Origin: a bacterium
Lineage (GTDB): Bacteria > Myxococcota_A > UBA9160 > UBA6930
Length of the DNA: 64,000 nucleotides
Direction of reading: 5' to 3'
NCBI GenBank assembly: GCA_024228115.1
Contig: JAAETT010000353.1
Coordinates: 1 to 64,000 of the forward strand
This document shows positions 9,637 to 62,593 of the stretch, one piece after another (the stretch's first letter is position 1; each line of letters opens with the position of its first letter). The position numbers were made by a program, and so were the translations under genes. The notes under the pieces are model-generated. The model had not been told where the DNA came from. It ran no database searches and was given only the letters and a program-made list of their open reading frames with translations.

Positions 9637-10519
9637 ATCCCGTGATCGCCTCGGCGAGCCGACCCGGGGCCTCGACATGGACGTCATGCCCGACGCCTGC
9701 GAAGGCGAGGAAACGGGTGTCTTGGAGTCGGGAGGTCAGGCCGCGGGCGGCCGCGATTGGAATAGATGCGTCGGCAGCGCCATGAACCTGGAGTACGGGC
9801 CGCCGAATCTCTTCGTAGGTGCCCGTCACGAGCCGCAGCCCGTCGACGGTGTACTGGCGTCGCAGGAAAGTGAGGAGCGCAGCTCGGGTGCCACGAATGG
9901 CATACGCCGCTGCCAGGCGGCGCTCGTGAGCTTCAGAGAACACGTCGCTGAAGATCGCCGTGCGTGCCATGGCGATCTCCCCGATGCCTGGGAGAAGCGG
10001 GACGATCTGCATCGGATCCATTGCCATGCCGTGCCCGATGAACACAGTTCGGTCTACGCGTTCGGGATGATCCGCGGTGAGGATCGCCGCTACGGCGCCT
10101 CCGGCAGAATGGCCCACGACCGTGGCCCGGTCGATCTCCAAAGCGTCGAGGACGTCGCGGGCCTCCTCTGCCCAGAGCGCGATTCCATAGCGTCCCGAAT
10201 GGGTGCGATCACTCAGACCGAGCCCGTAGTAGTCGATCCCGATGACCCGGTGGCTCTCGCCAAGGCGCGCGGACAGACCCTCCTGCCAGTCTGCCACGCT
10301 GCGTCCGGTTCCGTGGAGGAGCAGGATCACGTCTTCGCTCTTGCCAACGTCCAGCACGTGCACCCTTCCCGAGCGTGTTTCGACAAAACGGGTCTCCGGA
10401 TCGCTGGGTGCCTCGGCGCGAGGCATGGGCTCGGAGCCTCGGTTCAAGAGGGAACCGACGCCACAGCTGAAGAGGAGGACGAGTGTCAGGCCGGCCGAGA
10501 TGATGAGCTTGTTTTTCAA
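9608..10519 (-). CDS. Alpha/beta hydrolase, exported or lipid-anchored
   Basis: A 303-residue alpha/beta-hydrolase fold enzyme. Residues 1-19 are a hydrophobic signal ending LLFSC, so Cys19 may be lipidated. The oxyanion motif is LLLHGTGRS near 68-74, the nucleophile elbow VGHSAGG has Ser138, and candidates for the acid and base are GAADASIP near 245 and GVGHDVH near 275. Substrate unknown. The gene overlaps the upstream TetR gene by four bases (ATGA), so the regulator and hydrolase are cotranscribed. Its 3' end runs into the IS481 fragment on the other strand. Confidence 0.82.
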   Translation of the reverse strand: MKNKLIISAGLTLVLLFSCGVGSLLNRGSEPMPRAEAPSDPETRFVETRSGRVHVLDVGKSEDVILLLHGTGRSVADWQEGLSARLGESHRVIGIDYYGLGLSDRTHSGRYGIALWAEEARDVLDALEIDRATVVGHSAGGAVAAILTADHPERVDRTVFIGHGMAMDPMQIVPLLPGIGEIAMARTAIFSDVFSEAHERRLAAAYAIRGTRAALLTFLRRQYTVDGLRLVTGTYEEIRRPVLQVHGAADASIPIAAARGLTSRLQDTRFLAFAGVGHDVHVEAPGRLAEAITGFIEDTPAPL

Positions 10520-11172
10520 GATGATGCTTCCTCCGCCCCGAATGCGTCACGCAACACGGCTTTGAAGAGGGTGAGCGTACGCTCGCGAAGAGCTGCCGTT
10601 TCGGCATCGAAGGGGCGAGTTGCGTTTACGAGACCAAGCCCCTGCATCACCTGGAAGATCAGGCTGATCCACGTCGCGAAGTCGGGCAGCCGCTCAGCGA
10701 CTTCCGGGAACAACGCCTCGGCCAGCGGAACATTGCCTTCATCGAAGGCCTGCGCTTCGGGCCATAGGGACCAGGACAACTCGGCGTGGCTCGCGGCTGC
10801 GAGCCACAATTCCAGGACGGCCTTGAACTCAGGAGCGCCGAAGGCGGACCACATGACATCCACCAGCGCGTCGACCCGGTCGCCATTCGTAGGCAGGGCT
10901 TCGAGTTGTGTGACCACTCCGTCTCGCAAGCGGCCGTACACGGCTTCGAGGGTCGCTCCGAGCAGGTGCTCCCGCGTGCCGTAGTGGTGCAACAGCGATC
11001 CATTGGATACGCCGGCACGCTTGCAGACAGCCAGCGTGGTGGTTCCGGCGTAGCCGTGGTCGATCAGGCAGCCGATCGAGGCGTCGAGCAGACGTGTCTT
11101 GGTGGCGGCGCTTCGTTCCGCCTGACTTCTACGGGCCCGCGGAAGGGGAGTCTGGCTCGGCATGGTGGGCAT
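10516..11172 (-). CDS. TetR/AcrR family transcriptional regulator
   Basis: A 218-residue regulator. The N-terminal helix-turn-helix (about 24-70) reads TKTRLLDASIGCLIDHGYAG then VCKRAGVSNGSLLHHYGTRE, typical of TetR proteins; the C-terminal half is the variable ligand-binding domain. The gene is translationally coupled to the downstream alpha/beta hydrolase, so it probably controls that gene and itself. The upstream promoter carries a palindrome between the -35 and -10 boxes, as expected for autorepression. Ligand unknown. Confidence 0.88.
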   Translation of the reverse strand: MPTMPSQTPLPRARRSQAERSAATKTRLLDASIGCLIDHGYAGTTTLAVCKRAGVSNGSLLHHYGTREHLLGATLEAVYGRLRDGVVTQLEALPTNGDRVDALVDVMWSAFGAPEFKAVLELWLAAASHAELSWSLWPEAQAFDEGNVPLAEALFPEVAERLPDFATWISLIFQVMQGLGLVNATRPFDAETAALRERTLTLFKAVLRDAFGAEEASS

Positions 11173-17598: not shown

Positions 17599-18732
17599 CT
17601 AGAGCCCGATGGCCCGGGCGACGAGTTCGCGGTGGTAAGGCGCGTCGCCTAGCAAGCTGGCGCTCGATCGCGCGCGTTTGAAGTAGAGGTGGATGTCGTA
17701 CTCCCATGTGAAGCCGACACCACCGAAAATCTGGAGCGCTGTACCCGCGCAGAACGAGTAGGTATCGGAGGCCGCAGCCTTGGCCATCGATGCCGCGAGC
17801 GCGAGCTCGTCGCCCTGATCTGCGGCAACGCAAGCTGCGTAGTAGACGGCGGAGCGGGCCGATTCGATCTTGACCATCATGTCCGCACATTTGTGCTTGA
17901 TGGCCTGGAACGATCCGATCGGACGCCCGTACTGCACGCGCTCCTTGGCGTACGCCACCGCCATCTCGAGGCAGCGTTGTGCGCCGCCGACCTGCTCGGC
18001 GGCGAGGGCGATCGCGGCGCGTTGGAGGATCCGATCGAGAGCGTCGGCACCGCCATCGCCGAGCCGGGTGAACGCTGGCACACGCACACCATCGAGCCGA
18101 ATCTCCGCAAGGCGGCGCGTCTGGTCGAGTGTCGGGAGCGCTTCGCGCTGGAGCCCGGTCACATCGCCAGGCAGCACGACGAGGGCCAGGCCTTCCCTGC
18201 CGCTCGAGCCCTCTTCGCGAAGAGCCACGACGATGCGATCGGCGAAGTGGCCGTCCACCACATGACGCTTGGTCCCAGTCAGCACCAGTTCGTCGCCTTC
18301 GCGTCGAAAGCTGGCGCGGATGTCCTCGGCCGCCCAGCCTCCGCCCTGTTCGGCGACAGCGAGCGTGGCCGTGCACACACCTTCGGCAAGTTCCGGCAGC
18401 AGTGCTTGTCGGTGATCTTCGGTTCCAGCCGTGAGGATGGCATTGGCACCCAATGCAACGCTTGCGAAGAAAGGCGAAGCGAAGAGGGTCTCGCCCATGA
18501 CCTCCATCAACGCGACCAGCTCGACATCCCCCAGGCCGAGGCCACCATACGTATCCGGGGTGGTGACGGCGGGCCAGCCGAGTTCGGCGCCGACACGTTT
18601 CCACACCTCCGGGTCGTGTCCGAGCTCGCTGGCCATGGCGGCACGCACCTGGTCCGAGCTGGAGACCTCCACGAGGAATCCACGTGCCATTTCGCGGAGC
18701 TCGTCTTGCTCTTCCGTGAACCGGAAATCCAT
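17599..18732 (-). CDS. Acyl-CoA dehydrogenase
   Basis: A 377-residue flavoprotein of the acyl-CoA dehydrogenase family, made of an N-terminal helical domain, a beta domain (about 125-230) and a C-terminal helical domain. AEQVGGAQRCLEMAVAYAKE and YGRPIGSFQAIKHKCADM carry FAD and dimer contacts, and QIFGGVGFTWEYDIHLYFKR carries the catalytic-Glu motif of this subfamily. The ATG directly follows the stop of the upstream SDR (TAG-ATG, no gap), so the two are coupled. Within the operon it is a candidate for one of the alpha,beta-desaturations of steroid ring intermediates (a FadE31/32/33-like role). This assignment is inference from context. Confidence 0.88.
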   Translation of the reverse strand: MDFRFTEEQDELREMARGFLVEVSSSDQVRAAMASELGHDPEVWKRVGAELGWPAVTTPDTYGGLGLGDVELVALMEVMGETLFASPFFASVALGANAILTAGTEDHRQALLPELAEGVCTATLAVAEQGGGWAAEDIRASFRREGDELVLTGTKRHVVDGHFADRIVVALREEGSSGREGLALVVLPGDVTGLQREALPTLDQTRRLAEIRLDGVRVPAFTRLGDGGADALDRILQRAAIALAAEQVGGAQRCLEMAVAYAKERVQYGRPIGSFQAIKHKCADMMVKIESARSAVYYAACVAADQGDELALAASMAKAAASDTYSFCAGTALQIFGGVGFTWEYDIHLYFKRARSSASLLGDAPYHRELVARAIGL

Positions 18733-19635
18733 CTACGTCCCGTAGACCTTCTGGGCTGGTGTGGCCTTGTTCATCAATTCGTGGACGGCCGCTCCGATTT
18801 CGTCCGGGGCCCAGCGAGCGCCCTTGTCGATGGCCGGGCCGGCCCGCCAGCCGTCCGCGATGCTGATCTCGCCGCCGGAGAGCTCGAAGATCTGGCCGCT
18901 CACATCCTTCGATTCAGCGCTGCCAAGCCAGACGACGAGGGGCGAGATATTGGCGGGGTCCATTGCGTCGAAGCCGTCTTCGGGCTTCGCCATCATTTCC
19001 GCGAAGACGCCTTCGGTCATACGGGTGCGTGCAGAGGGGGCGATGGCATTGGAGGTGATGCCGTAGCGGCCGAGTTCAGCGGCCTGGATCAAGGTGAGCG
19101 CGGCGATCCCCGCCTTGGCTGCGGAATAGGAACTCTGACCGATGCTGCCCTGGAGGCCCGCGCCAGAGCTGGTGTTGATGATGCGCGCATCGACGGCATT
19201 CCCGGCCTTCGACTCGCCTCGCCAATGCTCGGCGGCATTTCGGGCGAGACAGAAATGCCCCTTCAGATGAACGCGCACCACGGCGTCCCATTCTTCTTCG
19301 CTGCAGGAGACGAACATGCGATCGCGGACGAAGCCGGCGTTGTTCACCACCACGTCGAGGCGACCGAAGGCTTCGAGAGCCTGCTCGACCGCCAGCCCGG
19401 TCTGCGCGAAATCCGCGACATCGGCGCCGTTGATGATCGCTTCGCCGCCTTCATCGCGGATCTGTTGCACCACATCATCGGCAGGGCCCGCACCACCGCC
19501 GCTACCGTCGAGCTCCACACCGATGTCGTTGACGACGACCTTGGCGCCTTCGCGAGCGAAGGCAAGGGCGTGCTCGCGGCCAATGCCGCGGGCAGCTCCC
19601 GTGATGATGACGACACGTCCGTCGCAGGTTCCCAT
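18733..19635 (-). CDS. SDR family oxidoreductase, Rv3548c/HSD17B4-like
   Basis: A 300-residue SDR with a long insertion after the cofactor loop: VVIITGAARGIGREHALAFA near 8-27, then VVVNDIGVELDGSGGG, as in peroxisomal-type hydroxyacyl-CoA dehydrogenases. NNAG is near 102, the Ser in INTSSGAGLQGS, and YSAAK near 170. The tail IDKGARWAPDE is, from memory, shared with Rv3548c of the mycobacterial KstR2 regulon. The start was placed at ATG 19635 because the Rossmann motif begins a few residues later. It lies 13 bp after the thiolase and directly abuts the next acyl-CoA dehydrogenase. Probable NAD-dependent hydroxyacyl-CoA dehydrogenase. Confidence 0.87.
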   Translation of the reverse strand: MGTCDGRVVIITGAARGIGREHALAFAREGAKVVVNDIGVELDGSGGGAGPADDVVQQIRDEGGEAIINGADVADFAQTGLAVEQALEAFGRLDVVVNNAGFVRDRMFVSCSEEEWDAVVRVHLKGHFCLARNAAEHWRGESKAGNAVDARIINTSSGAGLQGSIGQSSYSAAKAGIAALTLIQAAELGRYGITSNAIAPSARTRMTEGVFAEMMAKPEDGFDAMDPANISPLVVWLGSAESKDVSGQIFELSGGEISIADGWRAGPAIDKGARWAPDEIGAAVHELMNKATPAQKVYGT

Positions 19636-19648
19636 GTCTTGAACTCCC

Positions 19649-20800
19649 CTACAGACGTTCGATGATGGTGACGTTGGCCTGACCACCGCCTTCACACATG
19701 GTCTGGAGGCCGTAGCGCCCACCCGTGCGTTCCAATTCGTGGAGCAGGGTCGTCATCAGGCGTGTTCCGGTGGCTCCGATCGGGTGCCCCAGGGCGATCG
19801 CGCCGCCGTTGACGTTCACCTTTTCGAGGTCCCAGTTCGTCTCCTTCTGCCAGGCCAGGACGACCGGAGCGAAGGCCTCGTTGATCTCGACCAGGTCGAT
19901 CTCGTCCTTCGACATGCCGGCCTTGGCGAGCGCGTGCTTCGTGGCCTCGATCGGTGCCGTCAGCATGTAGATGGGGTCGTCGGCGCGAACACTGATGTGA
20001 TGCACGCGCGCACGCGGCTTGAGGCCGTGATCCTTCACCGCCTGCTCGCTGGCGATCAGCATGGCCGAGGCGCCGTCGGAGATCTGGCTGGCCATGGCTG
20101 CGGTGATGCGCCCGTCTTCGATCAACGGCTTCAGTCCGGCCATCCTCTCGAGGGTGGTGTCCCGTCGCGGCCCCTCGTCGTCTTCGACTCCCGCCAGCGG
20201 CACGATCTCCTTCTTGAACCGTCCTGCATCGACGGCCGCGATCGCGCGTTGATGGCTCTCATACGCGAAGCGCTCCATCTCCTCCCGGGAGATCTCCCAC
20301 TTCTCGGCGATCATTTCCGAGCCGCGAAATTGCGAGACCTCCTGGGTGCCATAACGTGCCTCCCAGCCTTCGGAACCCGCAAATGGAGTTTCGAAGCCGA
20401 GGGGCTGGGCCAACGTCATTGCGGAGCTGATCGGAATGGCGCTCATGTTTTGCACGCCACCGGCAACGATCAGGTCGCTGGTTCCGCTCATCACGCCCTG
20501 GGCGGCGAAGTGGACCGATTGCTGAGAAGAACCGCATTGGCGATCGATGGTCACGCCCGGCACGTGCTCGGGAAGGCCCGCTGCGAGCCAGCAAGTGCGC
20601 GCGATGTCGCCGGCTTGGGGACCGATCGTGTCGCAGCAGCCGAAGATCACATCGTCTACGGCATTCGGATCGACGCCGCTGTTGGCGACGAGCCCCTTGA
20701 TCACGTGGGCGCCCAGGTCTGCGGAGTGCACCTGGGCCAGGCCGCCGCCCCTGCGGCCGACCGGAGTGCGGATCGCGTCGATGATATATGCCTCTGCCAT
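19649..20800 (-). CDS. Acetyl-CoA acyltransferase (thiolase), FadA6-like
   Basis: A 383-residue degradative thiolase. The nucleophilic Cys lies in DRQCGSSQQSVHF (near 90), the His in GGAIALGHPIGATG (near 340) and the second Cys in TMCEGGGQAN (near 371), so the full Cys-His-Cys set is present. The start ATG 20800 is one base after the stop of the preceding acyl-CoA dehydrogenase. Thiolytic cleavage of a 3-ketoacyl-CoA fits the last steps of ring-C/D breakdown, where FadA6 acts in mycobacteria. Assignment to that exact step rests on the operon context. Confidence 0.88.
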   Translation of the reverse strand: MAEAYIIDAIRTPVGRRGGGLAQVHSADLGAHVIKGLVANSGVDPNAVDDVIFGCCDTIGPQAGDIARTCWLAAGLPEHVPGVTIDRQCGSSQQSVHFAAQGVMSGTSDLIVAGGVQNMSAIPISSAMTLAQPLGFETPFAGSEGWEARYGTQEVSQFRGSEMIAEKWEISREEMERFAYESHQRAIAAVDAGRFKKEIVPLAGVEDDEGPRRDTTLERMAGLKPLIEDGRITAAMASQISDGASAMLIASEQAVKDHGLKPRARVHHISVRADDPIYMLTAPIEATKHALAKAGMSKDEIDLVEINEAFAPVVLAWQKETNWDLEKVNVNGGAIALGHPIGATGTRLMTTLLHELERTGGRYGLQTMCEGGGQANVTIIERL

Positions 20801-20801
20801 G

Positions 20802-21863
20802 TCATGCGTCTCCTGAGAACGTGGTTCCGGGCCCGATCGGAAGCGTGCCCGCGAAGAGCGCCTCCCGAACGCGCCCCAGATGAAAAGCGCTGCGGCCCCA
20901 CGCGTGGTCCAGGGACCAGGCGCGGCGCATCCAGATGTGGAGATCCTGCTCCCAGGTGTAGCCGATCGCGCCGTGGGTCTGCAGCGCAGCCTTGGCGCCG
21001 AGCGTCGCGGCTTCGCAGGCGGCGAGTTTCGCCATCGAGACGTGCACGCCGCGGGCGGCGCTTCCATGGGCCACCGAGTGCGCCGCACGTTGTACCAGGG
21101 GCCGCGCGTACTCGAGTTTCACCTTGATGTCCGCGAGCATGTGCTTGACGGCCTGGAACGATCCGATCGGCTTGCCGAACTGCTTGCGTTCGCTGGCGTA
21201 CGCAGCGGCGAGGCTGATGAGACGATCGCAGACGCCCAGTGTTCCGGCGGCGCAGGCCAGGGCTCCGCGGTCGAGCGAAGCCGCGAACAATCCGGCAGCC
21301 GCGCCTCCGCTTGCGATGCGGGTGCTCTCGTTGGCTTTGAATTCGACACTGGCGATGCGTCGGGACGGGTCGTTGGCGGGTTGAACCTTCACCTCGGCTG
21401 CGTCCCGGGGAACGGCATGGAGCGCCCCATCGTTGTCGGGCAGCAGGAGGAGGTTGGCGACGTGCGCGTCCTCGACGAACGGGCTGATCGGATGGCCGAC
21501 GGCCGCGATGGCTTCCCCTGCGGCGATCTTCGGGAGCCATTCGTTCGCCAGATTCCCGCCGATCTCCCCGAGCAACGGCACGGCAACGGCAGCCGTGCTG
21601 ATCACGGGCTCCGCAAGCGCCGCGCGCCCGGCCTCTTCGATCAGAAGCACCATCTCTTCCTCGCAGAGACCCATGCCGCCATGCTGTTCCGGGACGAGCA
21701 GGCCCGGCAGGCCGATCTCCGCCAACTGCTTCCACAGCTCGGGCGAGCGCCCCGTTTCCGTCTCCCACAGCGCACGCACGGATTCGGGTGTGACTTCGCC
21801 CTGCAAGAACTCACGCACGGTGCTCTGCAACAGCTCCTGGTCTTCGTCGAAGCGAAAATCCAT
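20802..21863 (-). CDS. Acyl-CoA dehydrogenase, probable small partner subunit
   Basis: A 353-residue acyl-CoA dehydrogenase homologue with the usual three domains but a short middle part. Conserved segments are VPEQHGGMGLCEEEM near 57, LGVCDRLISLAAAYASERKQ near 215, FGKPIGSFQAVKHMLADIK, and LQTHGAIGYTWEQDLHIWMR near 305. It is two bases from the preceding acyl-CoA dehydrogenase (385 residues). Adjacent pairs of this kind form alpha2-beta2 heterotetramers in actinobacterial steroid catabolism (FadE26-27, FadE28-29), so it probably pairs with the upstream gene product. The pairing is inference. Confidence 0.86.
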   Translation of the reverse strand: MDFRFDEDQELLQSTVREFLQGEVTPESVRALWETETGRSPELWKQLAEIGLPGLLVPEQHGGMGLCEEEMVLLIEEAGRAALAEPVISTAAVAVPLLGEIGGNLANEWLPKIAAGEAIAAVGHPISPFVEDAHVANLLLLPDNDGALHAVPRDAAEVKVQPANDPSRRIASVEFKANESTRIASGGAAAGLFAASLDRGALACAAGTLGVCDRLISLAAAYASERKQFGKPIGSFQAVKHMLADIKVKLEYARPLVQRAAHSVAHGSAARGVHVSMAKLAACEAATLGAKAALQTHGAIGYTWEQDLHIWMRRAWSLDHAWGRSAFHLGRVREALFAGTLPIGPGTTFSGDA

Positions 21864-21865
21864 GA

Positions 21866-23023
21866 CTACCTCGGCAGCCCGAGAATGCGTTCGGCGATGA
21901 TGTTGCGCTGGATCTCGTTCGTGCCCGCGTAGATGGGGCCCGAGAGCGCAAACAGGTAGCCGTCGAGCCAGCCGCCAACGTCACCGGCCGCCGGCGCTTC
22001 CGGCAGCAGCTCGCCCCGGTCGCCCAGGATTTCGAGGGCCAGCTCGTGCATGCGCAGATCGAGTTCGCTCCAGAAGATCTTGTTGAGGCTGGCTTCGGCA
22101 CCGATCTTTCCCGCCGCCAGCAAGCGTGAGACCGTGCGATGGGTTTCCAGGGTGTACGCCTCCGCCGCGATCCAGCAGCGTGTGACTTCATCACGCACGG
22201 ACCTTTCGACCGCATCGCCGTGCAAACGCGCCAGCTCCACCAGGCGCTTCGCCGTTGCCTGGAAGCGCGCAGGGCTGCGCAGCATCAGGCCGCGTTCGAA
22301 GCCCGCCGTTGCCATGGCGACGTTCCAGCCCTTGCCTTCTTCCCCGAGCTGGTGCTCCGCGGGTACGCGCACATCGTCGAAGAAGACCTCGGCGAAGCCT
22401 GGCAGGCCGTCCAGTTGTTCGATCGGTCGGACGGTGATGCCCGGCAGGTCGAGAGGTACGAGAATGAACGTGAGGCCTCGGTGACGCTCCGATTCCGGAT
22501 CCGTGCGGAACATTCCGAAGAGCCAATCGGCGAATGCGCCGCGCGAGGCCCAGGTCTTCTGGCCGTTCAGCACGAAATGATCGCCATCCCGGGAGGCGGC
22601 GGCCTGGATGTTGGCCATGTCCGAGCCCGCGTTCGGTTCACTCCAACCCTGAGCCCAGACTTCTTCGCTTGCCGCCATCGGCGGCAGGAAACGCGCCTTC
22701 TGTTCGGGCGTGCCGTATTCCATGATCGTCGGGCCGAGCAGGAAGATCCCGTTCTGATTGATGCGTTTCGGTGCGCCGACCCGGTAGTACTCTTCTTCGA
22801 AGATCAGCCACTCGAGCAGGTTGGCGCCGCGGCCGCCGTACTCGACGGGCCACGGCACCATCGCCCAGCCGCCGGCATTGAGCTGCGCCTCCCACTCCCG
22901 ATGTTGCTTGGCACCCTCCGCGGTATCGAAGGATTTCAAGGGTTCTGAAGGGACGTTCGCTTCCAGCCACTTCCGCGCATCCGCACGGAACGCACGTTGG
23001 TCCTGGGTGTAGTCGAGATCCAT
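21866..23023 (-). CDS. Acyl-CoA dehydrogenase, FadE30-like large subunit
   Basis: A 385-residue acyl-CoA dehydrogenase starting at ATG 23023. Motifs are WPVEYGGRGANLLEW near 58, QGWSEPNAGSDMANIQ near 123 and LNGQKTWASRGAFADW near 148 (FAD/substrate contacts), and the C-terminal IYAGTNEIQRNIIAERILGL. The ending differs from the GxGYTWE ending of the two sister genes, so this is the other subunit type of heteromeric dehydrogenases. It follows echA20-like by 27 bp. A role in dehydrogenating HIP-CoA-type intermediates is inferred from the operon. Confidence 0.87.
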   Translation of the reverse strand: MDLDYTQDQRAFRADARKWLEANVPSEPLKSFDTAEGAKQHREWEAQLNAGGWAMVPWPVEYGGRGANLLEWLIFEEEYYRVGAPKRINQNGIFLLGPTIMEYGTPEQKARFLPPMAASEEVWAQGWSEPNAGSDMANIQAAASRDGDHFVLNGQKTWASRGAFADWLFGMFRTDPESERHRGLTFILVPLDLPGITVRPIEQLDGLPGFAEVFFDDVRVPAEHQLGEEGKGWNVAMATAGFERGLMLRSPARFQATAKRLVELARLHGDAVERSVRDEVTRCWIAAEAYTLETHRTVSRLLAAGKIGAEASLNKIFWSELDLRMHELALEILGDRGELLPEAPAAGDVGGWLDGYLFALSGPIYAGTNEIQRNIIAERILGLPR

Positions 23024-23050
23024 CTTCCGGCTCAGTCTTCTACTCTGGAA

Positions 23051-23803
23051 TCACTCATCGAATTTCGAGTCACGCTTCTCGACGAAGGCATCGCGCGATT
23101 CCTGGGAATCGGGGCTGGTGTAGAGCTCGAAGGTAAAGCCCTGCTCGTAGCGGTAGCTCTCCTTCGGGTCCAACAGCTCGATTCCATTCAGCGACCACTT
23201 GGCGAGTTCGACCGCCTTCGGGCTCTTGCTGGCGATCTTGCCCGCCAACTCCATCGCCGTATCGCGCAGCTTGTCCGCCGGAACCACCTGGAGGACGCCG
23301 CCCAACCGGTAGGCTTCGGCTGCGCTGATCGGCTCGCCAGTCAACAGCATGCGCCGCGCCTCCTGCATCCCGAACATGCGCATGGCGTGGGTCGCCGCAC
23401 CGAGCGCGCCCCGATCGATTTCCGGCAAGCCGAAGCTGGAATCCTCGGAACAGATCACAAGATCGCTCGCCCCGGCGATGCCGATGCCACCGCCAAGGCA
23501 GTAGCCGTGCACGGCGCTGATCACGGGGACTTTGCAGTCGTAGATGGCTCCGAATAAGTCGTAGCAGCCGCGATTGGCTTGCACGATCAGCGTGCCGTCT
23601 TCCGCGAGTTCCTTGACGTCCACGCCGCACTGAAAGCCTCGTCCCTCGGCGCGGATCACGACGACGCGGGCTTCCCCGCCGCGGCCGAGTTCGGTGATCC
23701 GCTCGGCAAGCTCGCCCCAGTGCCGAGTGGCGAAAGCGTTGACCGGCGGATTGTCGATCACCAGCTCGGCGATACCGCTTTCGAGGGATACGGAGAAGGC
23801 CAT
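23051..23803 (-). CDS. echA20: EchA20-like enoyl-CoA hydratase family protein
   Basis: A 250-residue crotonase-fold protein. The oxyanion segments are RAEGRGFQCGVDVKELAE near 52-69 and VHGYCLGGGIGIAGASD near 100, followed by FGLPEIDRGALGAATHAMRM. In mycobacteria EchA20 opens ring D of the HIP-derived CoA ester by hydrolysis rather than hydrating an enoyl group. Here it lies in one operon with ipdA, ipdB and ipdC, which strongly supports the same role. ATG 23803 was chosen because longer in-frame readings have no crotonase homology; GGAG of the ribosome site lies inside the end of ipdC, four bases away. The name is by homology and context. Confidence 0.82.
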   Translation of the reverse strand: MAFSVSLESGIAELVIDNPPVNAFATRHWGELAERITELGRGGEARVVVIRAEGRGFQCGVDVKELAEDGTLIVQANRGCYDLFGAIYDCKVPVISAVHGYCLGGGIGIAGASDLVICSEDSSFGLPEIDRGALGAATHAMRMFGMQEARRMLLTGEPISAAEAYRLGGVLQVVPADKLRDTAMELAGKIASKSPKAVELAKWSLNGIELLDPKESYRYEQGFTFELYTSPDSQESRDAFVEKRDSKFDE

Positions 23804-23807
23804 GGCG

Positions 23808-24878
23808 TTACTCCTGGTTCCGGTTGGCGAGGCGCGCGAGTGTCTCCTCGGCCTCGCGGACGATGCGCTCGATGAGCTCTGCGCAGGTGGGCCGGTCGTC
23901 GAGCACGCCGGCCACCGTGCCACTCGGTAGATAGCCTCCGATCGGGTCACCATCGTTCATGGCCCGTTTGGCCAGGATCGGCGCGTTGGCGGCCAACAGC
24001 ATCTGAGCTCGGGTCAGGCCTTCGTTCTTGCGCATGGAGAGCGCCGAACGCAGGAGCTCGGGAATCGTCGCGCCGGAAACGCGCCGGAACTCGAGGCCAT
24101 TTCGCAGGGCCAAGAGCAATCGCTTCAACGGCCCCGCCGATTCGAGTGCATCGACCAGTTCATTCACAATGACTCGTTGGGGCATGCCGTCGATTTCTCG
24201 CGTGACGATCACGTCCGTGAGGCTCGCGTCGGCGTAACGCTCCTGTGTGAGATCAGGGACCGGGCTCTCCGCGGTCATCAGGAAGCGCGTGCCCATCGCG
24301 ATTCCCTCGGCGCCATAGGCCAGGGCCGCGACCAGTCCGCGCCCGTCCTTGAATCCACCGGCGGCAATTACGGGAATCTCCACGGCATCCACACATGCGG
24401 ACACCTGGAGGCTCGTCGGGATCGTCCCCGTATGCCCTCCGCCCTCGCCGCCTTGGACGATCACCGCATCGGCCCCGAGCTTCTCCGCTTTCTGTACGTG
24501 GCGCGGCGCTCCGCAGGTCGGCACACATACGACGCCGCCGGCCTTCAACGTGTCGATCAGCTCGGCGCTCGGCGCCCGGTTGTATCCCGCGGCGCGTACG
24601 CCGTGGGTGAGGATCATTTCCGTGATTTCCTTCGCGCCCGGTGCATCCATCAGGAAGTTCACGCCGAAGGGCTGCGACGTCAGCTCCTTGGTGGCAACGA
24701 TGCGCTTCTCGACCTCGTCGAGCGGAAGCGCCGCCGCTGCGAGGAAGCCGAAGGCGCCCGCGTTGCAAACGCCGGCCACGAGTTCCGGCGTGGCCACCCA
24801 GCCCATACCCGTCTGGACGATGGGCAAACGCATGCCAAGCAGATCGCAGAGCCGGGTGTGGAGGGGGTGCAACGGCAT
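23808..24878 (-). CDS. ipdC: IpdC-like flavin-dependent oxidoreductase (NPD family)
   Basis: A 356-residue TIM-barrel flavoprotein of the nitronate monooxygenase/2-nitropropane dioxygenase family. It has PIVQTGMGWVATPELVAGV near 19, FGVNFLMDAPG near 71, the FMN-phosphate segments VIVQGGEGGGHTG near 140 and VIAAGGFKDGRG near 168, and AEGIAMGTRFLMT near 188. The sequence matches what I recall of mycobacterial IpdC (Rv3553), and its neighbours are ipdB and echA20. IpdC performs a flavin-dependent oxidation/reduction that prepares the ring-D-opening substrate. It has 12 bp to ipdB and four bases to echA20. A bona fide nitronate oxidase is the less likely alternative. Confidence 0.82.
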   Translation of the reverse strand: MPLHPLHTRLCDLLGMRLPIVQTGMGWVATPELVAGVCNAGAFGFLAAAALPLDEVEKRIVATKELTSQPFGVNFLMDAPGAKEITEMILTHGVRAAGYNRAPSAELIDTLKAGGVVCVPTCGAPRHVQKAEKLGADAVIVQGGEGGGHTGTIPTSLQVSACVDAVEIPVIAAGGFKDGRGLVAALAYGAEGIAMGTRFLMTAESPVPDLTQERYADASLTDVIVTREIDGMPQRVIVNELVDALESAGPLKRLLLALRNGLEFRRVSGATIPELLRSALSMRKNEGLTRAQMLLAANAPILAKRAMNDGDPIGGYLPSGTVAGVLDDRPTCAELIERIVREAEETLARLANRNQE

Positions 24879-24890
24879 GGGTCGTACGGG

Positions 24891-25652
24891 CTAGGACCGC
24901 ACCTCCTTGTTGAGGGTGCCCCCTGGATCGATCGCCTGGCGGATCAGTTGCAGCTCTTCGTCCGTCGGTGCGCGCGTCGTAGGCACGTTCTCGTCGATGA
25001 CGAGTTCGAATCCGGTCTTCTCGACGACCTCGTCCACGCCGACACCCGAGTGCAACGAGGCGAGCCGCATGCGGTGATCGGGCGTCTCGAAATCGAATAC
25101 ACCGAGGTTCGAGATCACATGATGGATGTGGTGGAAGCGCGAAGTCTGGGGCCCAAGCGCAGCCGCCCGGTCGTAGCCGACACCCGAGACCACATCGACC
25201 TTCTCGACGAAGACCTTCGGCGAGTGGTTCGGGATCCAGTACGAGGTGCGGTGACTGATCGTGTTGCCCGGCGCGCCACGCATGCCGAGGAGCTGGGCCT
25301 TGGGTTTCGCATGTTCACCGATGCAAGCGAAGTTCTGGTTGCCGTAGCGATCGATCTGGCTGGCGATCATCATCACGTGGCGGCGGCCGCCCCACAACAA
25401 GTCGAAGATGCCGCGGAAGGGTGTCCAGCCTTCGATGACGGCTTCTGGCTTCTCTCCGCTCACCGGGTCGACATTGGCCAGGAGCGAGCAGATGCCGTCT
25501 GTCATCAGCAGGTCGGGTTCGAAGGTCAGCCGCGCGAGCCGCGCGCCCACGGCCGGGGTCGTGCCGAAGCAGCTCACCAGGATCTCGCCATCGCCACGGA
25601 AGGCCTCCGCCACCGCGACGGCGCAGACTTCGGCCCGGGTTGAGTCACTCAC
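24891..25652 (-). CDS. ipdB: Ring-C-opening CoA-transferase-like hydrolase, subunit IpdB
   Basis: A 253-residue protein of the class I CoA-transferase fold (beta-subunit type). STRAEVCAVAVAE opens the protein; RLTFEPDLLMTDG, the segment IEGWTPFRGIFDLLWGGRRH, DRYGNQNFACIG, RGAPGNTISHRTSYW and VVSGVGYDRA follow in the order I recall for mycobacterial IpdB. IpdAB hydrolyses the C-ring ketone of COCHEA-CoA and is not a true transferase. GTG 25652 overlaps the ipdA stop (GTGA), giving the known length; the longer upstream frame is not homologous. Strictly coupled to ipdA, with which it forms the heteromer. Confidence 0.88.
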   Translation of the reverse strand: MSDSTRAEVCAVAVAEAFRGDGEILVSCFGTTPAVGARLARLTFEPDLLMTDGICSLLANVDPVSGEKPEAVIEGWTPFRGIFDLLWGGRRHVMMIASQIDRYGNQNFACIGEHAKPKAQLLGMRGAPGNTISHRTSYWIPNHSPKVFVEKVDVVSGVGYDRAAALGPQTSRFHHIHHVISNLGVFDFETPDHRMRLASLHSGVGVDEVVEKTGFELVIDENVPTTRAPTDEELQLIRQAIDPGGTLNKEVRS

Positions 25653-26497
25653 CTGGCAGCCACCTTCTTCTGGTACTCGAGTTCGGAGATATCGAGGTAC
25701 TCGGCCTTGAAGGCCTCCCAGGCTTCCGGGTCCTTGGCGGTCGCCGCGTACTCGCTCTGGAATCTCTCGTCTCGACCGTAGTCGGGCGTGCACTCGGTAA
25801 AATGAGCGCCGCCGGGCGCCTCGATCACGCCATCGACCATCGTGCGATTGATGCGCAAGGTGTGAAGCGTGCCTTCAGTAAGCAGGTTCTTCGTTTCGAT
25901 GATCTTCTCACAGGTCATGAAGCGTCGCTTCGCCGCCATGCAGTAGAGATCGTCGAAGTAGAAATCCGGCCCCAGGTACTGGCCGTTGCCGTGCATGTCG
26001 GCCCGGTTCATGTGGATGAAGGCCATGTCGAGCTCGAGTGCCGGCATGGCAACGAGCTGTTCCGCATCCTGGTAGGGCGAGGTGACGAGCTGGAGCTCCG
26101 GATTGATCTCCATGACATCGGTGCCGAGGCCCGCGCGGGTCGGGAGGAAAGGCAGGCGGAGGGCGGCCGCGTAGAGACCCCATTGGAGCATGCCTTCATC
26201 GAGCTCGCGGACTTCCGGGATGGCTCCTTCTTGGCGTGCCCGGCGGAAGTGGGGCTCGAGCGGAATCGAATCCAACGAGACGAAGCCGTAGACGAGGCGC
26301 TTCACCTTGCCGTACTTGCAGAGCAGCCCCACATCCGGCCCGCCGTAGGTGACGATCGTGAGATCGCGGACCGATGAGCGCAAGATCTCACGCACGATCG
26401 ACATCGGCTTGCGCCGGGAGCCCCAGCCCCCGATGCCGATCGTCATGCCATCGCGGAGCTCCGCGACGGCCTCCGTCTCGGTGGTGCGCTTGTCCAT
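25649..26497 (-). CDS. ipdA: Ring-C-opening CoA-transferase-like hydrolase, subunit IpdA
   Basis: A 282-residue class I CoA-transferase-fold protein (alpha-subunit type) and the first gene of the ten-gene operon. GMTIGIGGWGSRRKPMS near 17-33, VTYGGPDVGLLCKYGKVKR near 49-67, RELDEGMLQWGL near 97-108 and VEAPGGAHFT-like IEAPGGAHFTECTPDYGRDE near 230 closely follow mycobacterial IpdA as I remember it. The acidic residue in LDEGML (Glu101) likely corresponds to the Glu essential in IpdAB. With IpdB it opens the last steroid ring. The start ATG 26497 is about 100 bp downstream of a promoter with an embedded palindrome. Confidence 0.9.
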   Translation of the reverse strand: MDKRTTETEAVAELRDGMTIGIGGWGSRRKPMSIVREILRSSVRDLTIVTYGGPDVGLLCKYGKVKRLVYGFVSLDSIPLEPHFRRARQEGAIPEVRELDEGMLQWGLYAAALRLPFLPTRAGLGTDVMEINPELQLVTSPYQDAEQLVAMPALELDMAFIHMNRADMHGNGQYLGPDFYFDDLYCMAAKRRFMTCEKIIETKNLLTEGTLHTLRINRTMVDGVIEAPGGAHFTECTPDYGRDERFQSEYAATAKDPEAWEAFKAEYLDISELEYQKKVAAR

Positions 26498-26597
26498 GGG
26501 CCTCCCGCGGCATTCCCTGCACCAATCACGGATTGGCTGGACCGGAAGTCTGTGCCGCCAGGCACGGACACACCACTCGTGCCGGAGCGAGACGAAT

Positions 26598-26626
26598 ATA
26601 ATAACGATACGTATCGTTTCTGTAAA
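26598..26626 (-). promoter_or_regulatory. Promoter with 16-bp operator for the ipdA operon
   Basis: The minus strand has TTTACA (26626-26621), a 17-bp spacer and TATTAT (26603-26598). The spacer is almost filled by the perfect palindrome AACGATACGTATCGTT (26603-26618), a typical TetR-family operator shape. It differs from the KstR2 consensus (AnCAAGnnCTTGnT), so another repressor is likely. The whole 240-bp gap (26498-26737) separates the operon from the divergent acyl-CoA synthetase gene, and its part from 26590 to 26700 is unusually A+T-rich. Control of both directions is plausible. Confidence 0.65.
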
Positions 26627-26737
26627 TCAAATCCCAGATCAGAGCGAATGCGCAGAACATCCTATAACTCATTGATTTAATTACAAAAATGACAAGTCTC
26701 CGAGCTATGCGACCCTGTTCGCGCTAAACCCCGATTC

Positions 26738-28216
26738 GTGATTCACGACCTCGCCCGAACGAATCCCGAGGGCCGGGCCTTGTCCGACGGCACGCGGCAG
26801 CGGGGCTGGGCGGAACTCCTCGATCGCATCACGCGCTGGGCGCGGCTGCTCCACGGAGAGCTGGGAATGGCGCCCGACGATCATGCGGCGCTGTTGATCG
26901 GAAACCGGGTCGAGGGGATCGAGGGCATTCTCGCGGGGATTCACGCGGGCGTGTGGATGACGCCGGTCAATTGGCACCTGACGCCAGGCGAAATCAGCTA
27001 CGTCGTCCAGGATTCCGGCGCGAAGGTGCTCTTCACGGATCCGGAACACGAAGAGGCGGCCCGGGCCAGCGGAGCGCCGCGGGTGATCGTCGTTGGCGAG
27101 GAACTCGAAGCGCTGTTGGCGTCCGCCTCCGACGAGCCGATGCCGCTCGATGGGCCGGCCGGCGGCAACATGATCTACACCAGCGGAACCACAGGCCGGC
27201 CCAAAGGTGTGATGCGGCGCCGGGCCTCGAGCCTGGGCCAGGCCCTGGTCGGGCAGGAGACCTACGCCCGCTCGATCGCTTGCGACGGTAGTGGGCCCCA
27301 TCTGGTCACGGGCCCGATCTACCACGCGGCGCCGCTGATGTTCGCGATCTACGACCAGGCTTGCGGTGCGCCGGTGCGCATCCTGCCACGCTGGGACGAT
27401 CGGGAAGCGCTGCGCGTGCTTCGGGACGAGGAGATTCATCACACCCATCTGGTGCCAACCATGTTCGTCCGGCTCCTGCGGCTGCCCGAGGAAGAGCGCT
27501 CGGCCCATCAGGCTCCGGCGCTCCACACGGTGCTGCACGGTGCGGCGCCGGTTTCGGTGGCGACGAAGCAGCGCATGCTCGATTGGTGGGGGCCGATCCT
27601 GCTCGAGTATTGGGGTGGGACCGAAGGTGGTGTGACGACCCTCGTCGCTGCCGCGGACTGGGCCGCCCGGCCGGGCACCGTGGGTCACGCCTTGCTTCAA
27701 TACGAGGTCTTCGCCGTCGGGCCGGACGGTCAGCGCCTGGGGCCGGACGAGGAGGGCGATCTCTACGCTCGCCACGCGACGGCCGAGTGGTTCTTCGAGT
27801 ATCACGGGGACCGCCAGAAGACCGAAGAAGCGTTCCTCGACCCGATGACCCATACCCTCGGCGACATCGGCCGGGTCGATGCCGAAGGCTGGGTCTACCT
27901 CTCGGATCGCCGCTCGAACCTGATCATCTCCGGCGGTGTGAACATCTATCCCGTCGAGATCGAACAGGTCATGCAGGAACACCCGGCCGTTTCGGACGTG
28001 GGTGTGTTCGGAATCCCTGACGAAGAGTGGGGAGAGCAGGTCAAGGCAGTCGTGGAATTGGTGCCCGGGCACGACCCGAGCCCCGAGCTTGCAGAAGCCC
28101 TGCGGAGCTACGCCCGGGAGCACCTGGCCGGCTACAAGGTTCCCCGGACGATTGCCTTCGAGGACAAACTACCCCGCACCGAAGCGGGGAAGCTCTACCT
28201 CAAGCGTCTGCGGTAG
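26738..28216 (+). CDS. Acyl-CoA synthetase divergent from the steroid operon
   Basis: A 492-residue ANL-family acyl-CoA ligase. IYTSGTTGRPKGVM is near 148-161, the A5 motif EYWGGTEGG near 290, TLGDIGRVDAEGWVYLSDR near 373-391, and PRTEAGKLYLKRL ends the protein with the catalytic Lys. It starts at GTG 26738 without a good ribosome site, and an N-terminal extension is impossible because of stops. It is head-to-head with ipdA across a palindrome-bearing control region, so its substrate may be the steroid-derived acid that enters the pathway (HIP or similar). Its sequence is not especially like FadD3, the known HIP-CoA ligase, so this is tentative. Confidence 0.85.
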   Translation: MIHDLARTNPEGRALSDGTRQRGWAELLDRITRWARLLHGELGMAPDDHAALLIGNRVEGIEGILAGIHAGVWMTPVNWHLTPGEISYVVQDSGAKVLFTDPEHEEAARASGAPRVIVVGEELEALLASASDEPMPLDGPAGGNMIYTSGTTGRPKGVMRRRASSLGQALVGQETYARSIACDGSGPHLVTGPIYHAAPLMFAIYDQACGAPVRILPRWDDREALRVLRDEEIHHTHLVPTMFVRLLRLPEEERSAHQAPALHTVLHGAAPVSVATKQRMLDWWGPILLEYWGGTEGGVTTLVAAADWAARPGTVGHALLQYEVFAVGPDGQRLGPDEEGDLYARHATAEWFFEYHGDRQKTEEAFLDPMTHTLGDIGRVDAEGWVYLSDRRSNLIISGGVNIYPVEIEQVMQEHPAVSDVGVFGIPDEEWGEQVKAVVELVPGHDPSPELAEALRSYAREHLAGYKVPRTIAFEDKLPRTEAGKLYLKRLR

Positions 28217-44797: not shown

Positions 44798-45403
44798 CTA
44801 GGCGAGCAGCCGGCGAAGCGCCTTTTCGATGACGGCAGACGCGCGGTTTCGGCTGAGGCGTTGCTCGGATCGCAGGCGGTCCCAGGCCTCGGACGAAGTC
44901 GCCAACTCGGCGGCGTCGATCAGCTCGGCATCCCCTTGCTCGAACTCCGGGAGCCAGCGCAAGAGATTCGTGCGCAACTCGCGAACGTAGGTCGCGTGGC
45001 GTCCCCGCAGATAGTCGGAACGCCATCGATGCAGGGCCGCCGAGCGGTGATAGGGCGAAAAACGCTCGAAGAGATCTGCCCGCCGCGTAACCAGCGCCGC
45101 GATTCGCGCCTCGAGCCCGCCCTCGGGTTGGCCCCCTCTCAGCAGCGGACGAAGCTCGGCCCGCAGCCGCGCGTCCATCTCTGCGTAGAGGGTCTCCATA
45201 TCCGAGAAATGGCGGAACACGGTACGGATGCCGACGCCGGCTCGTTCAGCCACCTGCTGGGCCGTGGGCCGGGGGCTGCCCTCACCGATCAGCGCCATCA
45301 AGGCCTGCACGATCGCCTGGCGGCTGCGCTCCGAGCGACGGGCCCGGCCATCGGAACTGGTGGCCTCAGACGAAGGAACGGTACCAGGAGCAGAACGGGC
45401 CAT
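44798..45403 (-). CDS. TetR family transcriptional regulator
   Basis: A 201-residue regulator. The helix-turn-helix is clear: RSRQAIVQALMALIGEGSPR then QQVAERAGVGIRTVFRHFSD (about 23-68); the C-terminal ligand domain is diverged. ATG 45403 was chosen because the long frame upstream is antisense to another gene. An imperfect palindrome, ATGGCA-N7-TGCCAT, lies ten bases before the start and may be its own operator. Targets are unknown; neither the nearby lipid-binding-like gene nor the DUF4336 gene is evidently linked. Confidence 0.87.
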   Translation of the reverse strand: MARSAPGTVPSSEATSSDGRARRSERSRQAIVQALMALIGEGSPRPTAQQVAERAGVGIRTVFRHFSDMETLYAEMDARLRAELRPLLRGGQPEGGLEARIAALVTRRADLFERFSPYHRSAALHRWRSDYLRGRHATYVRELRTNLLRWLPEFEQGDAELIDAAELATSSEAWDRLRSEQRLSRNRASAVIEKALRRLLA

Positions 45404-45412
45404 GCCGAGAAG

Positions 45413-45431
45413 ATGGCAGAAACCGTGCCAT
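45413..45431. promoter_or_regulatory. Candidate operator upstream of the TetR gene
   Basis: ATGGCA (45413-45418) and TGCCAT (45426-45431) form a 19-bp inverted repeat with a seven-base centre, ten bases upstream of the TetR start codon at 45403. Position and symmetry suit autoregulation. I see no convincing -10/-35 pair for it. Confidence 0.4.
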
Positions 45432-45483
45432 AACTCGACCCCGAAATGGATGGCCGAGGGAGGCCTCTCGGCAGGGAAGCCTC

Positions 45484-46158
45484 CTAGCGAAGGAAGGCGT
45501 AGCCCTCCGCCAGGGCCTCCTTCCCCCCGGCCTCCACGACATCCCCATGGGCCACGATCACGCGTTCGAAAGGCCACTCGAGAATCCGGTCGAGGGACGA
45601 GCGGAAGGCGGTGCGATCCCGGATGCCGAAGCGCTCGAGCAGCGTCGGAGAGAGCCGACTCTTCACGCCGGCCAGGCGCATCGCAAACCGGGTGGGGGCG
45701 GAGAAGCTCTGCGAAAGATTGAACGCGAGATCCGTAGCCACGAGCGTGGCCGTTGCCGGGTGGTAGAAGACGACCTCGTTTGCGAGGGGGAAGCCCTTGA
45801 CGGCCACCTGTTCGACGTTTCCTGCCCAGGCTTTGGGTGAGTCGTCTCCGAGCACCTCGGCGGGCATCAGATCGGGCCGCTTGCTCTCGAGCCCAGGCGC
45901 GAGATGGAGGGAAGCAGCGGGAAATGCATCCCGCCAATCGCCGATGAACAGATGGTGGAAGCGCGTCGGCGCGATCAACGCGGCGGGTTCGCCCAGGGCC
46001 CGAACGGCCTCGAGGCGTTCGGGCGTCGCTTCGATAGGCGAGTGAATCCACAGACGACCCGTAGGCAGCCGGATCACCGTCATACGAGTGCCGATCTCGA
46101 CCCCCACGAAGCGGAGCGGCTGCTGGTCCACCCAGAGGTCCGTCGCCAACGACTGCAT
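45484..46158 (-). CDS. DUF4336 (metallo-beta-lactamase-like) protein
   Basis: A 224-residue protein of the DUF4336 family, a diverged metallo-beta-lactamase fold. TRMTVIRLPTGRLWIHSPIE near 26-45, LIAPTRFHHLFIGDW near 66 (in place of the HxHxDH motif), ATDLAFNL near 144 and VIVAHGDVV near 199 are visible. The zinc motif is mostly lost, so catalytic activity is doubtful. Start at ATG 46158; an upstream in-frame ATG exists. A GGAGGC/GCCTCC hairpin (45459-45484) covers its stop codon and might terminate transcription. Confidence 0.75.
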   Translation of the reverse strand: MQSLATDLWVDQQPLRFVGVEIGTRMTVIRLPTGRLWIHSPIEATPERLEAVRALGEPAALIAPTRFHHLFIGDWRDAFPAASLHLAPGLESKRPDLMPAEVLGDDSPKAWAGNVEQVAVKGFPLANEVVFYHPATATLVATDLAFNLSQSFSAPTRFAMRLAGVKSRLSPTLLERFGIRDRTAFRSSLDRILEWPFERVIVAHGDVVEAGGKEALAEGYAFLR

Positions 46159-46283
46159 CCGGGGAGTATCGAACACCCGCAACGACGGTGCCAAGAGCTC
46201 GAAAAACCAGCACAACTCCGCTTGTGATGGAGGTCATGCAAAGTGGCTGCTGCTCACCCGTTGTGTTGGAAGGGAGGGATGAG

Positions 46284-47024
46284 ATGCAGAAGCGCACTCA
46301 GCGGACCGTGCTCCTTTTGGATGTGGGCCACGATTCACTCGCGATCCTTGCGGCGCGGATCAGCAGGCTTGGCTTCCGCACCGTTCGAGTCAAGACTCCC
46401 GAGGAAGCCATCCCCGTCCTGGCGGATCCCCGCTTCTCGGTGCATGCACTCGTGGTGCCTCCGGACCTGCCTGTCGCCAACCTGAAGGCGACCCTCTCCG
46501 CGTTGCGCCTGGCTTCGCCGCGGGAGGCCCTGGCCGTCCTCGTGAGCCTTCCGCGCAGGACGCCAAAGCATGATCGCGAACGGCTCGCCCGTTCGGGAAT
46601 CGACCTGGCCTTGTTCGATCCGATCGATGCTCACACGCTCCGCTTCCAGTTGAACCGTGGCATCGCGGGGGAGATTCCAGCCCGCCGAGAACGGGGTGGA
46701 CGAAGGGCACCCTCCAGCCATGAGGTCTCGCTGCGCATTCGAAGAAGGCGGCGGCCGGCTCGGCTCTACACCTTCTCTTCGCATGGCGCTTTCCTCGTCT
46801 GTGAGGCGCCGGCCCTCCGCAAGACCCGCCTCGAACTCGAATTCGGCATCCCTGGGCTTCCCCGTCGCATCTCGAGCGAGGTCGTCATGACCAACGTTGC
46901 GGGCAATCTTTCGCGAGTCGATTTGCCGCACGGCATGGCGATCCGCTTCGACGGCCTGGAGGCCGATCACGAGACCGCGTTGGAGCTACTCGCGGACAAG
47001 GTGTTGAGGCGGCTCGAGCTCTAG
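46284..47024 (+). CDS. PilZ domain protein with receiver-like N-terminus
   Basis: A 246-residue protein. Residues 1-120 look like a response-regulator receiver fold (VLLLDVGHDSLAILAARISR start; LVSLPRRTPKHDRERL; LFDPIDAHTLRFQL), but the phosphorylation Asp is not in a normal place, so it is probably a pseudo-receiver. Residues 140-240 form a PilZ domain (SLRIRRRRRPARLYTFSSHG); the D/NxSxxG motif reads TFSSHG, so c-di-GMP binding may be weak. Start ATG 46284 follows GGAGGG. It is likely a c-di-GMP effector related to surface behaviour. Confidence 0.75.
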   Translation: MQKRTQRTVLLLDVGHDSLAILAARISRLGFRTVRVKTPEEAIPVLADPRFSVHALVVPPDLPVANLKATLSALRLASPREALAVLVSLPRRTPKHDRERLARSGIDLALFDPIDAHTLRFQLNRGIAGEIPARRERGGRRAPSSHEVSLRIRRRRRPARLYTFSSHGAFLVCEAPALRKTRLELEFGIPGLPRRISSEVVMTNVAGNLSRVDLPHGMAIRFDGLEADHETALELLADKVLRRLEL

Positions 47025-60877: not shown

Positions 60878-62593
60878 TCAGGCCGTCGGCGCGGCCTGCG
60901 GCCCGCGTACGAGCCCGCCCGGCAATGTTCCGGTCGGCTCGCCGTCCTCGTAGATGATCTCCCCGTTCTTGATGGTGTAACGGTAGCCGTCGACCTTCTG
61001 GATCAGGCGGCGTCCCTCAGCGGGCAGGTCGTAGACCATTTCCGGCGCGTGCAGATGCAAGGCGTCGAAGTCGATCAGGTTCACGTCTGCGCGCATGCCG
61101 GGCGCGACAGTTCCGCGATCTTCCATCCCGTAGAACGCGGCGGTGCGACGCGTCTGCCGTTCCACCACCACCTCCAGCGGAATCCGTTCACCACGCTCCC
61201 GGTCGCGCACCCAATGGGTGAGAAGGAAGCTGGGCATGCTGGCATCACAGATCAAACCGCAATGGGCACCGCCGTCCGAGAGCCCGAATACGGAACTCTC
61301 GTGGAGCATCATCTGCCGGATCGGCTCCAGATCGCCGTTCGCGTAACCGAGCAGCGGCATGTAGACGAAGCCACCCTCGAGCATGAGGTCGTAGGCCACT
61401 TCGTCGGGGCTGCACCCTTTGCGGTTTGCGATGGCCGCCAGGCTCTGGTCCGGTGCCGGCTCGTACTCCGGCGGGTCGCCCAGGGGAAACATCATGTGCC
61501 AGGCGCCTGCGACCAGGGCGGCAACCCCGGGCAGGCCCGCCAGATTCGGCCGTTCCGCCAGGATGGCTTCGCGCACGGCCGGCTCTGCCAGCTTCTGAAG
61601 CCTCTCCTCTCGAGGCAGCGCGCCGTAGGGCGCAAATGCCTTCCGCAGCATGAAGGGCTGAAAGGTGCTCTCGAAGCCGAACAGCATGCCCGCCGGCCGT
61701 TGCGCCACCTGGGGTGTCAGGTGCCCGCCTTCGGCCCGATCCTCATCGACCACCGCCATGAGTCGTTTCCACTGGTCCGGATCGGCCGGGCTCTGCAGAC
61801 ACGCAAAGGTCACCGGGCGGCCCGTCTCCTTGCCAAGCTTGCGCATCCAGCGCAGCTCGTCGCCTTCGGGCGCGAGATCACTCGCCACCTCGAACACCCC
61901 GTGCCCCACTTCACCTAACATGCGTCCGATGCCGAGCACCTCTTCGTCCTCGGCCGTGGTGCCAGGTACCAGCTCGCCGTCCTTGGCCCGATGCAAGAGC
62001 GTGCGCGAGGTCGAGAAGCCGAGAGCTCCGGCCTCGAGGCCCTCCTTCACGATCGCCGCCATCTCAGAGATCTCCCCTGGGGTCGCTTTCTCGTTCTTCG
62101 CGCCGCGCTCACCCATGACATAGGCCCGCACGGCGCCATGGGGAACCTGGGTCGCCACGTCGATTGCGCGGGGAATCTTCTCCACAGCGTCCAGGTACTC
62201 GGGAAAGCTCTCCCACGCCCAGTCGATCCCTTCGGCCAGCGCGGTGCCCGGAATGTCTTCGACTCCCTCCATCAACTGAATCAGGAAATCCTGTTGGCCC
62301 GGGCGGACCGGTGCGAACCCGACGCCACAATTCCCCATCACGAGGGTCGTCACGCCATTCCAGCCGGAGGGCGTGAGATAGGGATCCCAGGTCACCTGGC
62401 CGTCGTAGTGGGTATGGATGTCGACCCAGCCTGGTGTGACGAGCAAGCCCTTGGCATCGATCTCGCGCTTGGCCGGGCCGACGTCGCTGCCGACCGCGAC
62501 GATGCGATCGCCTTGGATCGCCACGTCGGCCTGGCGCGCCTTGGCGCCCGTTCCGTCTACCACGGTGCCGCCGCGAATCACGAGATCATGCAT
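60878..62593 (-). CDS. Amidohydrolase, N-acyl-D-amino-acid deacylase family
   Basis: A 571-residue metal-dependent hydrolase of the amidohydrolase superfamily (D-aminoacylase/dihydroorotase-like group). The metal motif is [14 protein letters not shown] with His60 and His62, then NCGVGFAP near 94, and the late Asp lies in [15 protein letters not shown]. The N-terminal beta domain begins [20 protein letters not shown], typical of the group. Members cleave N-acyl-D-amino acids or cyclic amides; the true substrate is unknown. It is divergent from the epoxide hydrolase gene, with about 160 bp between. Confidence 0.87.

Follow-up and report, generated by a model that had tools for sequence, protein, structure and literature searches.

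A conserved palindrome in the ipdA promoter of an uncultured bacterium as the predicted operator of a TetR-family regulator

A perfect 16-bp palindrome, AACGATACGTATCGTT, lies inside the ipdA promoter, which belongs to a steroid-degradation gene cluster of the bacterium studied here, and it probably serves as the operator of a TetR-family repressor, most likely the TetR protein encoded on contig C511 of the same genome, which is predicted to act also on its own gene and on two further operons. At the level of sequence, the evidence consists of the site itself, its conservation, the promoter geometry, the co-occurrence with the TetR gene and a motif common to four promoters.

The palindrome was found at 26603-26618 of the window (the whole stretch of 64,000 nucleotides that was analysed), within the promoter block 26598-26626 and 105 bp from the ipdA ATG, with the sequence and position that the sequence-only reading had assigned to it. 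A minus-strand scan of 26300-26900 returned TTTACA-17 nt-TATTAT as the sole sigma-70-like match (10/12 consensus; 0.2 matches expected in shuffles of the same region), giving a -35-like hexamer TTTACA at 26621-26626 and a -10-like hexamer TATTAT at 26598-26603, both on the minus strand. The earlier description of a palindrome filling the promoter spacer was right as to the spacer, but strictly the palindrome extends one base further, into the -10 hexamer. In the 6.4-Mb genome there is a single exact copy of the 16-mer; six further forward matches carry three mismatches each.

Nine co-directed genes were annotated from ipdA on, spanning 17599-26497 on the minus strand. The first, ipdA (25649-26497), encodes a CoA-transferase-like alpha subunit whose identity was confirmed by its matches to solved IpdAB structures (6co6/6con, E about 1e-104 to 1e-101; 6co6 itself, E 3e-104). 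It is followed by an ipdB-like beta subunit (24891-25793, the start probably internal to the ORF), assigned by position and by a weak CoA_trans match of 20.6 bits, slightly below the Pfam cut-off. Next come an ipdC-like NMO/FabK-type reductase (23808-24878, family match) and an echA20-like enoyl-CoA hydratase (23051-23953, start internal; NF005925, 336 bits against a cut-off of 260). Two acyl-CoA dehydrogenases recognized by family match follow, at 21866-23023 and 20802-21863, the second IpdE2-like at a score below the cut-off. The series ends with a fadA6-like thiolase (19649-21088, start internal; NF005865, 713 bits against 591), an SDR oxidoreductase (18733-19722; NF005861, 492 bits against 373) and another acyl-CoA dehydrogenase (17599-18732, family match). 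The divergent acyl-CoA synthetase that had been read as facing the ipdA promoter proved to be a real gene (26738-28216, plus strand, family match). Since the synthetase does not always adjoin ipdA in relatives, the palindrome would serve ipdA first; control of the synthetase by the same site is possible and is not backed by conservation.

Of the 97 genomes searched, 68 yielded an IpdA match, and ipdA upstream regions were taken from 67 genomes, 55 by sequence and 12 only by the position of the pattern match; G052 was excluded because its IpdA match is a contig-end fragment. Absence of the palindrome from orthologous promoters had been named beforehand as the outcome that would speak against the sequence-only reading, and instead a site scoring at least 14.4 was present upstream of ipdA in 60/67 genomes, whereas none of 2,650 Markov-shuffled upstreams scored above 12.2, with scores that are partly in-sample since the matrix derives partly from the same sites, and with relatives that share ancestry and so are not independent of one another. 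The site of G007 scored 10.5, within the shuffled range; in G009 and G071 the readable upstream comprised merely 58 and 80 bases; and the matrix scan gave no site upstream of ipdA in G057, G079, G082 and G086. Searched irrespective of position, the strict pattern WACGRWACGTWYCGTW matched 37 of the 97 genomes, once or twice each, and the reversed-pattern control gave 0 matches. When 27 genera were represented by one genome each, information content was 1.62 bits per base in the palindrome, 1.24 in the block from -8 to 22 and 0.25 in the other aligned upstream positions. The sequence TTTACAGA ahead of the palindrome and AT-rich -10 letters behind it recur in many of these genera, relatives again show TTTACA(GA) next to the palindrome, and the upstream region beyond the promoter block is unconserved. 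We read the alignment as a phylogenetic footprint of one promoter with one operator, and by this measure the palindrome is conserved across the whole group of uncultured bacteria.

The repressor gene was sought among the TetR genes of the genome. All 73 genes with a TetR_N match, together with their upstream regions, were scanned for the motif, and the C511 gene scored 14.9 while the runner-up scored 5.7; the genome search for TetR-linked copies of the palindrome suggested in the sequence-only reading thus singled out 1/73. This gene (G000:C511:141-734, minus strand, 198 aa; entry C511:531-668 of the 73) lies on a contig other than that of ipdA, and its upstream match, AACGGAACGTACTGTA, lies 93 bp ahead of the start. 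Because the gene sits on a contig edge, its linkage to ipdA comes from relatives only: in 16 genomes the tetR orthologue is on the ipdA contig, about 9-44 kb away. The C511 protein has an N-terminal TetR_N helix-turn-helix (PF00440, 51.3 bits against a cut-off of 24) and matches TetR_C_11 with 90.5 bits; TetR_C_24 is absent from its match list. Queried with this protein, 69/97 genomes gave a match and 68/97 an orthologue, usually one per genome, the match in G057 (44% identity) being counted as a paralogue. Across 30 orthologues, conservation is higher in the DNA-binding region than elsewhere (mean 0.94 against 0.75).

Other candidates were considered and set aside. The earlier remark that no regulator is adjacent to ipdA agrees with the fetched loci of the clade, which lack a nearby TetR gene in all but two cases (L270 of G018 and L255 of G021), and these two TetR proteins have no close relative among the TetRs of our genome. 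The upstream region of the window TetR gene at 10516-11172 (minus strand) fell outside the 15 highest motif scores of the 73, and the gene was rejected. A second window TetR gene, at 44798-46297 (minus strand), likewise has an upstream region outside the 15 best. Several KstR2-like proteins of actinobacteria find their best own-genome match in the TetR of contig C694 (26-29% identity); this candidate was rejected, with no motif in the surrounding 18 kb and an upstream region outside the 15 best of the 73. A LacI-type operator reading, suggested by the central CG and even spacing, was abandoned once the TetR association emerged.

Across the 97 genomes, 61 had both IpdA and the TetR, 7 IpdA only, 7 the TetR only and 22 neither. 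In the 66 genomes that have IpdA and a readable ipdA upstream, among which G007 and G052 were scored operator-positive, operator and TetR occurred together in 59, the operator alone in 3, the TetR alone in 0 and neither in 4. Fisher values for these counts take no account of common descent and do not serve as probabilities. The genomes with an operator and no TetR match, G037, G052 and G066, are 76-85% complete; those with neither are G057, G079, G082 and G086. The last three belong to the same class and possess IpdA, and their ipdA genes are probably under yet another regulator.

The site in front of tetR is a compound variant of the ipdA operator. In the upstream regions of 30 orthologous tetR genes, a site scoring at least 12.6 was present within 450 bp in 23/30; the others comprise two at 9.5 and 10.1, G073 at 5.7 and four below 0, and the tetR upstream of G007 also scored low. 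The recurring form is AACGRAACGTANNGTATCGTAAT, which on the opposite strand shows half-site TACGATAC followed, after five extra bases, by half-site GTTCCGTT, that is, the ipdA half-sites (AACGGAAC and GTATCGTA) spaced 5 bp wider. A free search with the compound pattern found it in 60/97 genomes, in many of them directly before the TetR gene, and 0 times with the reversed-pattern control. Three of the 30 orthologues (G019, G025 and G046) have no site within 450 bp of tetR; in these genomes the compound site was located about 1.4 kb upstream on the same strand. With a new 16-bp operator on one side and a compound autoregulatory site with wider half-sites on the other, it is somewhat probable that the regulator binds in one mode at its own promoter and in another at its targets. 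A cytochrome P450 gene is divergent from tetR in several relatives (L327 4028-5518, L329 17129-18388), and it may share the compound operator.

Beyond ipdA and tetR, motifs of the class TACG..CGTA were found in our genome on contigs C112 (L164, 3759-3774), C106 (L167, 2956) and C136 (L166, 3802), where they precede acyl-CoA dehydrogenase, CoA-transferase III and SDR genes, and orthologous operons keep the motif. Loose motif patterns gave about as many matches with the reversed control in some genomes, and were therefore used for named places only. In the type 1 operon the motif lies upstream of an acyl-CoA dehydrogenase gene followed by an SDR gene (G000, G002, G003, G004, G010, G013, G028, G048, G049 and G084), and the palindrome at its promoter reads TTGCA-TACGATACGTTCCGTA-TTGTAATAT. 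In layout this operon resembles the mycobacterial fadE30-ipdF/fadD3 genes. The SDR passes the NF005880 cut-off, tested in G004; a ligase gene divergent from the operon in several genomes scores 258 bits against a FadD3 cut-off of 657. The labels FadE30, FadD3 and IpdF are given by position and family, that of FadD3 by position. The one type 1 locus not chosen by motif, in G034, has a weak site (12.4) at the fadE30-like promoter. The type 2 operon combines an acyl-CoA dehydrogenase, a CoA-transferase III and a FAS1-type dehydratase behind an upstream motif; G084 has it without a dehydrogenase match, and in some loci the dehydratase lies past the fetched end. Ten extra loci selected by motif all belonged to these operons, 7 to type 2 and 3 to type 1. 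On C217 (L165, 4195-4215) a sixth own-genome site is made up of two motif matches that overlap at a distance of five bases; near it are an ORF with a rhomboid domain and a long, overlapping ORF on the minus strand. A pair of operator-like sites, likewise overlapping and five bases apart, was also seen in G018 (L270, 2580-2600), about 8 kb from ipdA and adjoining a relative of acyl-CoA dehydrogenases.

Taken together, the shared motif and the co-occurrence suggest that C511 TetR binds the palindrome as a dimer or dimers. By occupying the spacer, such a dimer would obstruct RNA polymerase at ipdA; the protein would repress its own gene through the compound site, and likewise the fadE30-like/ipdF-like operon and the acyl-CoA dehydrogenase/CoA-transferase III operon. 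Purely by analogy with KstR2, the protein might be released by one of the pathway's CoA thioesters, HIP-CoA for example. The strongest alternative is that another regulator uses the palindrome and controls the C511 tetR gene, the C511 protein having a different target. Binding of the palindrome by C511 is deduced, the tetR promoter carries the compound variant and not the plain palindrome, and two further TetR genes lie in the window, all of which leave room for such a regulator; however, a strong upstream motif is found with C511 alone among the 73 TetR genes, C511 co-occurs with the operator, and neither window TetR is among the 15 best-scoring upstreams, so that we regard this alternative as rather unlikely. 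It is very improbable that the palindrome is occupied by an activator. The sign of control is not fixed by sequence alone, but in both the ipdA and the fadE30-like promoters the site falls between the -35-like and -10-like letters, the typical position of a repressor, and TetR proteins are mostly repressors. The idea that the palindrome is accidental or structural, for instance a hairpin or restriction-type site, and has no regulator is hardly credible given 0.03 matches with up to three mismatches expected by chance in the window, both half-sites fixed at one place in many genera, and strict copies usually numbering one or two per genome where present.

To our knowledge, regulators of C/D-ring (HIP) steroid breakdown are well known from Actinobacteria only. 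For bile-acid-degrading Proteobacteria, the relevant part of a review describes KstR1 and KstR2 homologues as absent and the mechanisms as largely unknown (PMC8399759). Literature searches listed no title or abstract opening on this operator or on ipd regulation in the present group, and fragments of the palindrome sequence led only to two unrelated papers. The proposal names a protein, defines its operator and outlines a small regulon, all open to direct testing. If the proposal is true, the same pathway has gained the same layout of control, built on a different repressor, and the motif would provide a marker for steroid-degrading bacteria in metagenomes together with a candidate sensor of steroid metabolites.

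Among known regulators, KstR is, like C511, of the TetR family, and it matches C511 weakly (5cw8, E 3e-7, residues 12-80); the match is confined to the helix-turn-helix region, and KstR governs the upper cholesterol pathway and not the ipd genes in the passages cited (PMC8700777, PMC8399759). EdcR of Caenibius tardaugens, as far as its description in PMC8700777 goes, is an estrogen-dependent TetR repressor that acts on steroid breakdown in a non-actinobacterium, with a palindrome overlapping the -10 box and a less conserved site in its own promoter, as here; in contrast, it controls the upper estradiol pathway through the operator TnnCnnTACnAnTnGTAnnGnnA. The closest parallel is KstR2 of Mycobacterium and Rhodococcus, a TetR-type regulator with palindromes at the ipdAB operon, its own promoter and the fadE30-ipdF/fadD3 region. 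In the part of PMC3068626 that deals with binding, it occupies three mycobacterial regions, Rv3549c-Rv3550 beside ipdAB, its own promoter and Rv3560c-Rv3561 (fadE30/fadD3 by the gene names in Table 1 of PMC5380842), with AnCAAGnnCTTGnT (14 bp) as operator, and HIP-CoA is named as its effector in PMC5380842. In our group the promoters equivalent to these three targets carry the motif. The operator here is the 16-bp WACG..ACGT..CGTW, unlike that of KstR2, just as the sequence-only reading had held: AnCAAGnnCTTGnT has 0 full matches in the window, and its core CAAGNNCTTG occurs once, at 62444, far from ipdA. The motif here is also found on the extra acyl-CoA dehydrogenase/CoA-transferase III operon. 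Rhodococcus KstR2 (L049, identified by 4w97/4w1u, E 5e-38) matches TetR_C_24 best, whereas C511 matches TetR_C_11 and was not among the four best own-genome matches of any actinobacterial TetR query. The suggestion that a repressor other than KstR2 uses the site is supported as far as sequence goes, judging from a TetR of another C-terminal family with related sites in its own promoter; the word 'recruited' would further imply a direction of evolution. By these comparisons the C511 regulator is not a KstR2 and resembles it in target layout, and the palindrome is probably bound by a repressor with the role that KstR2 has in mycobacteria.
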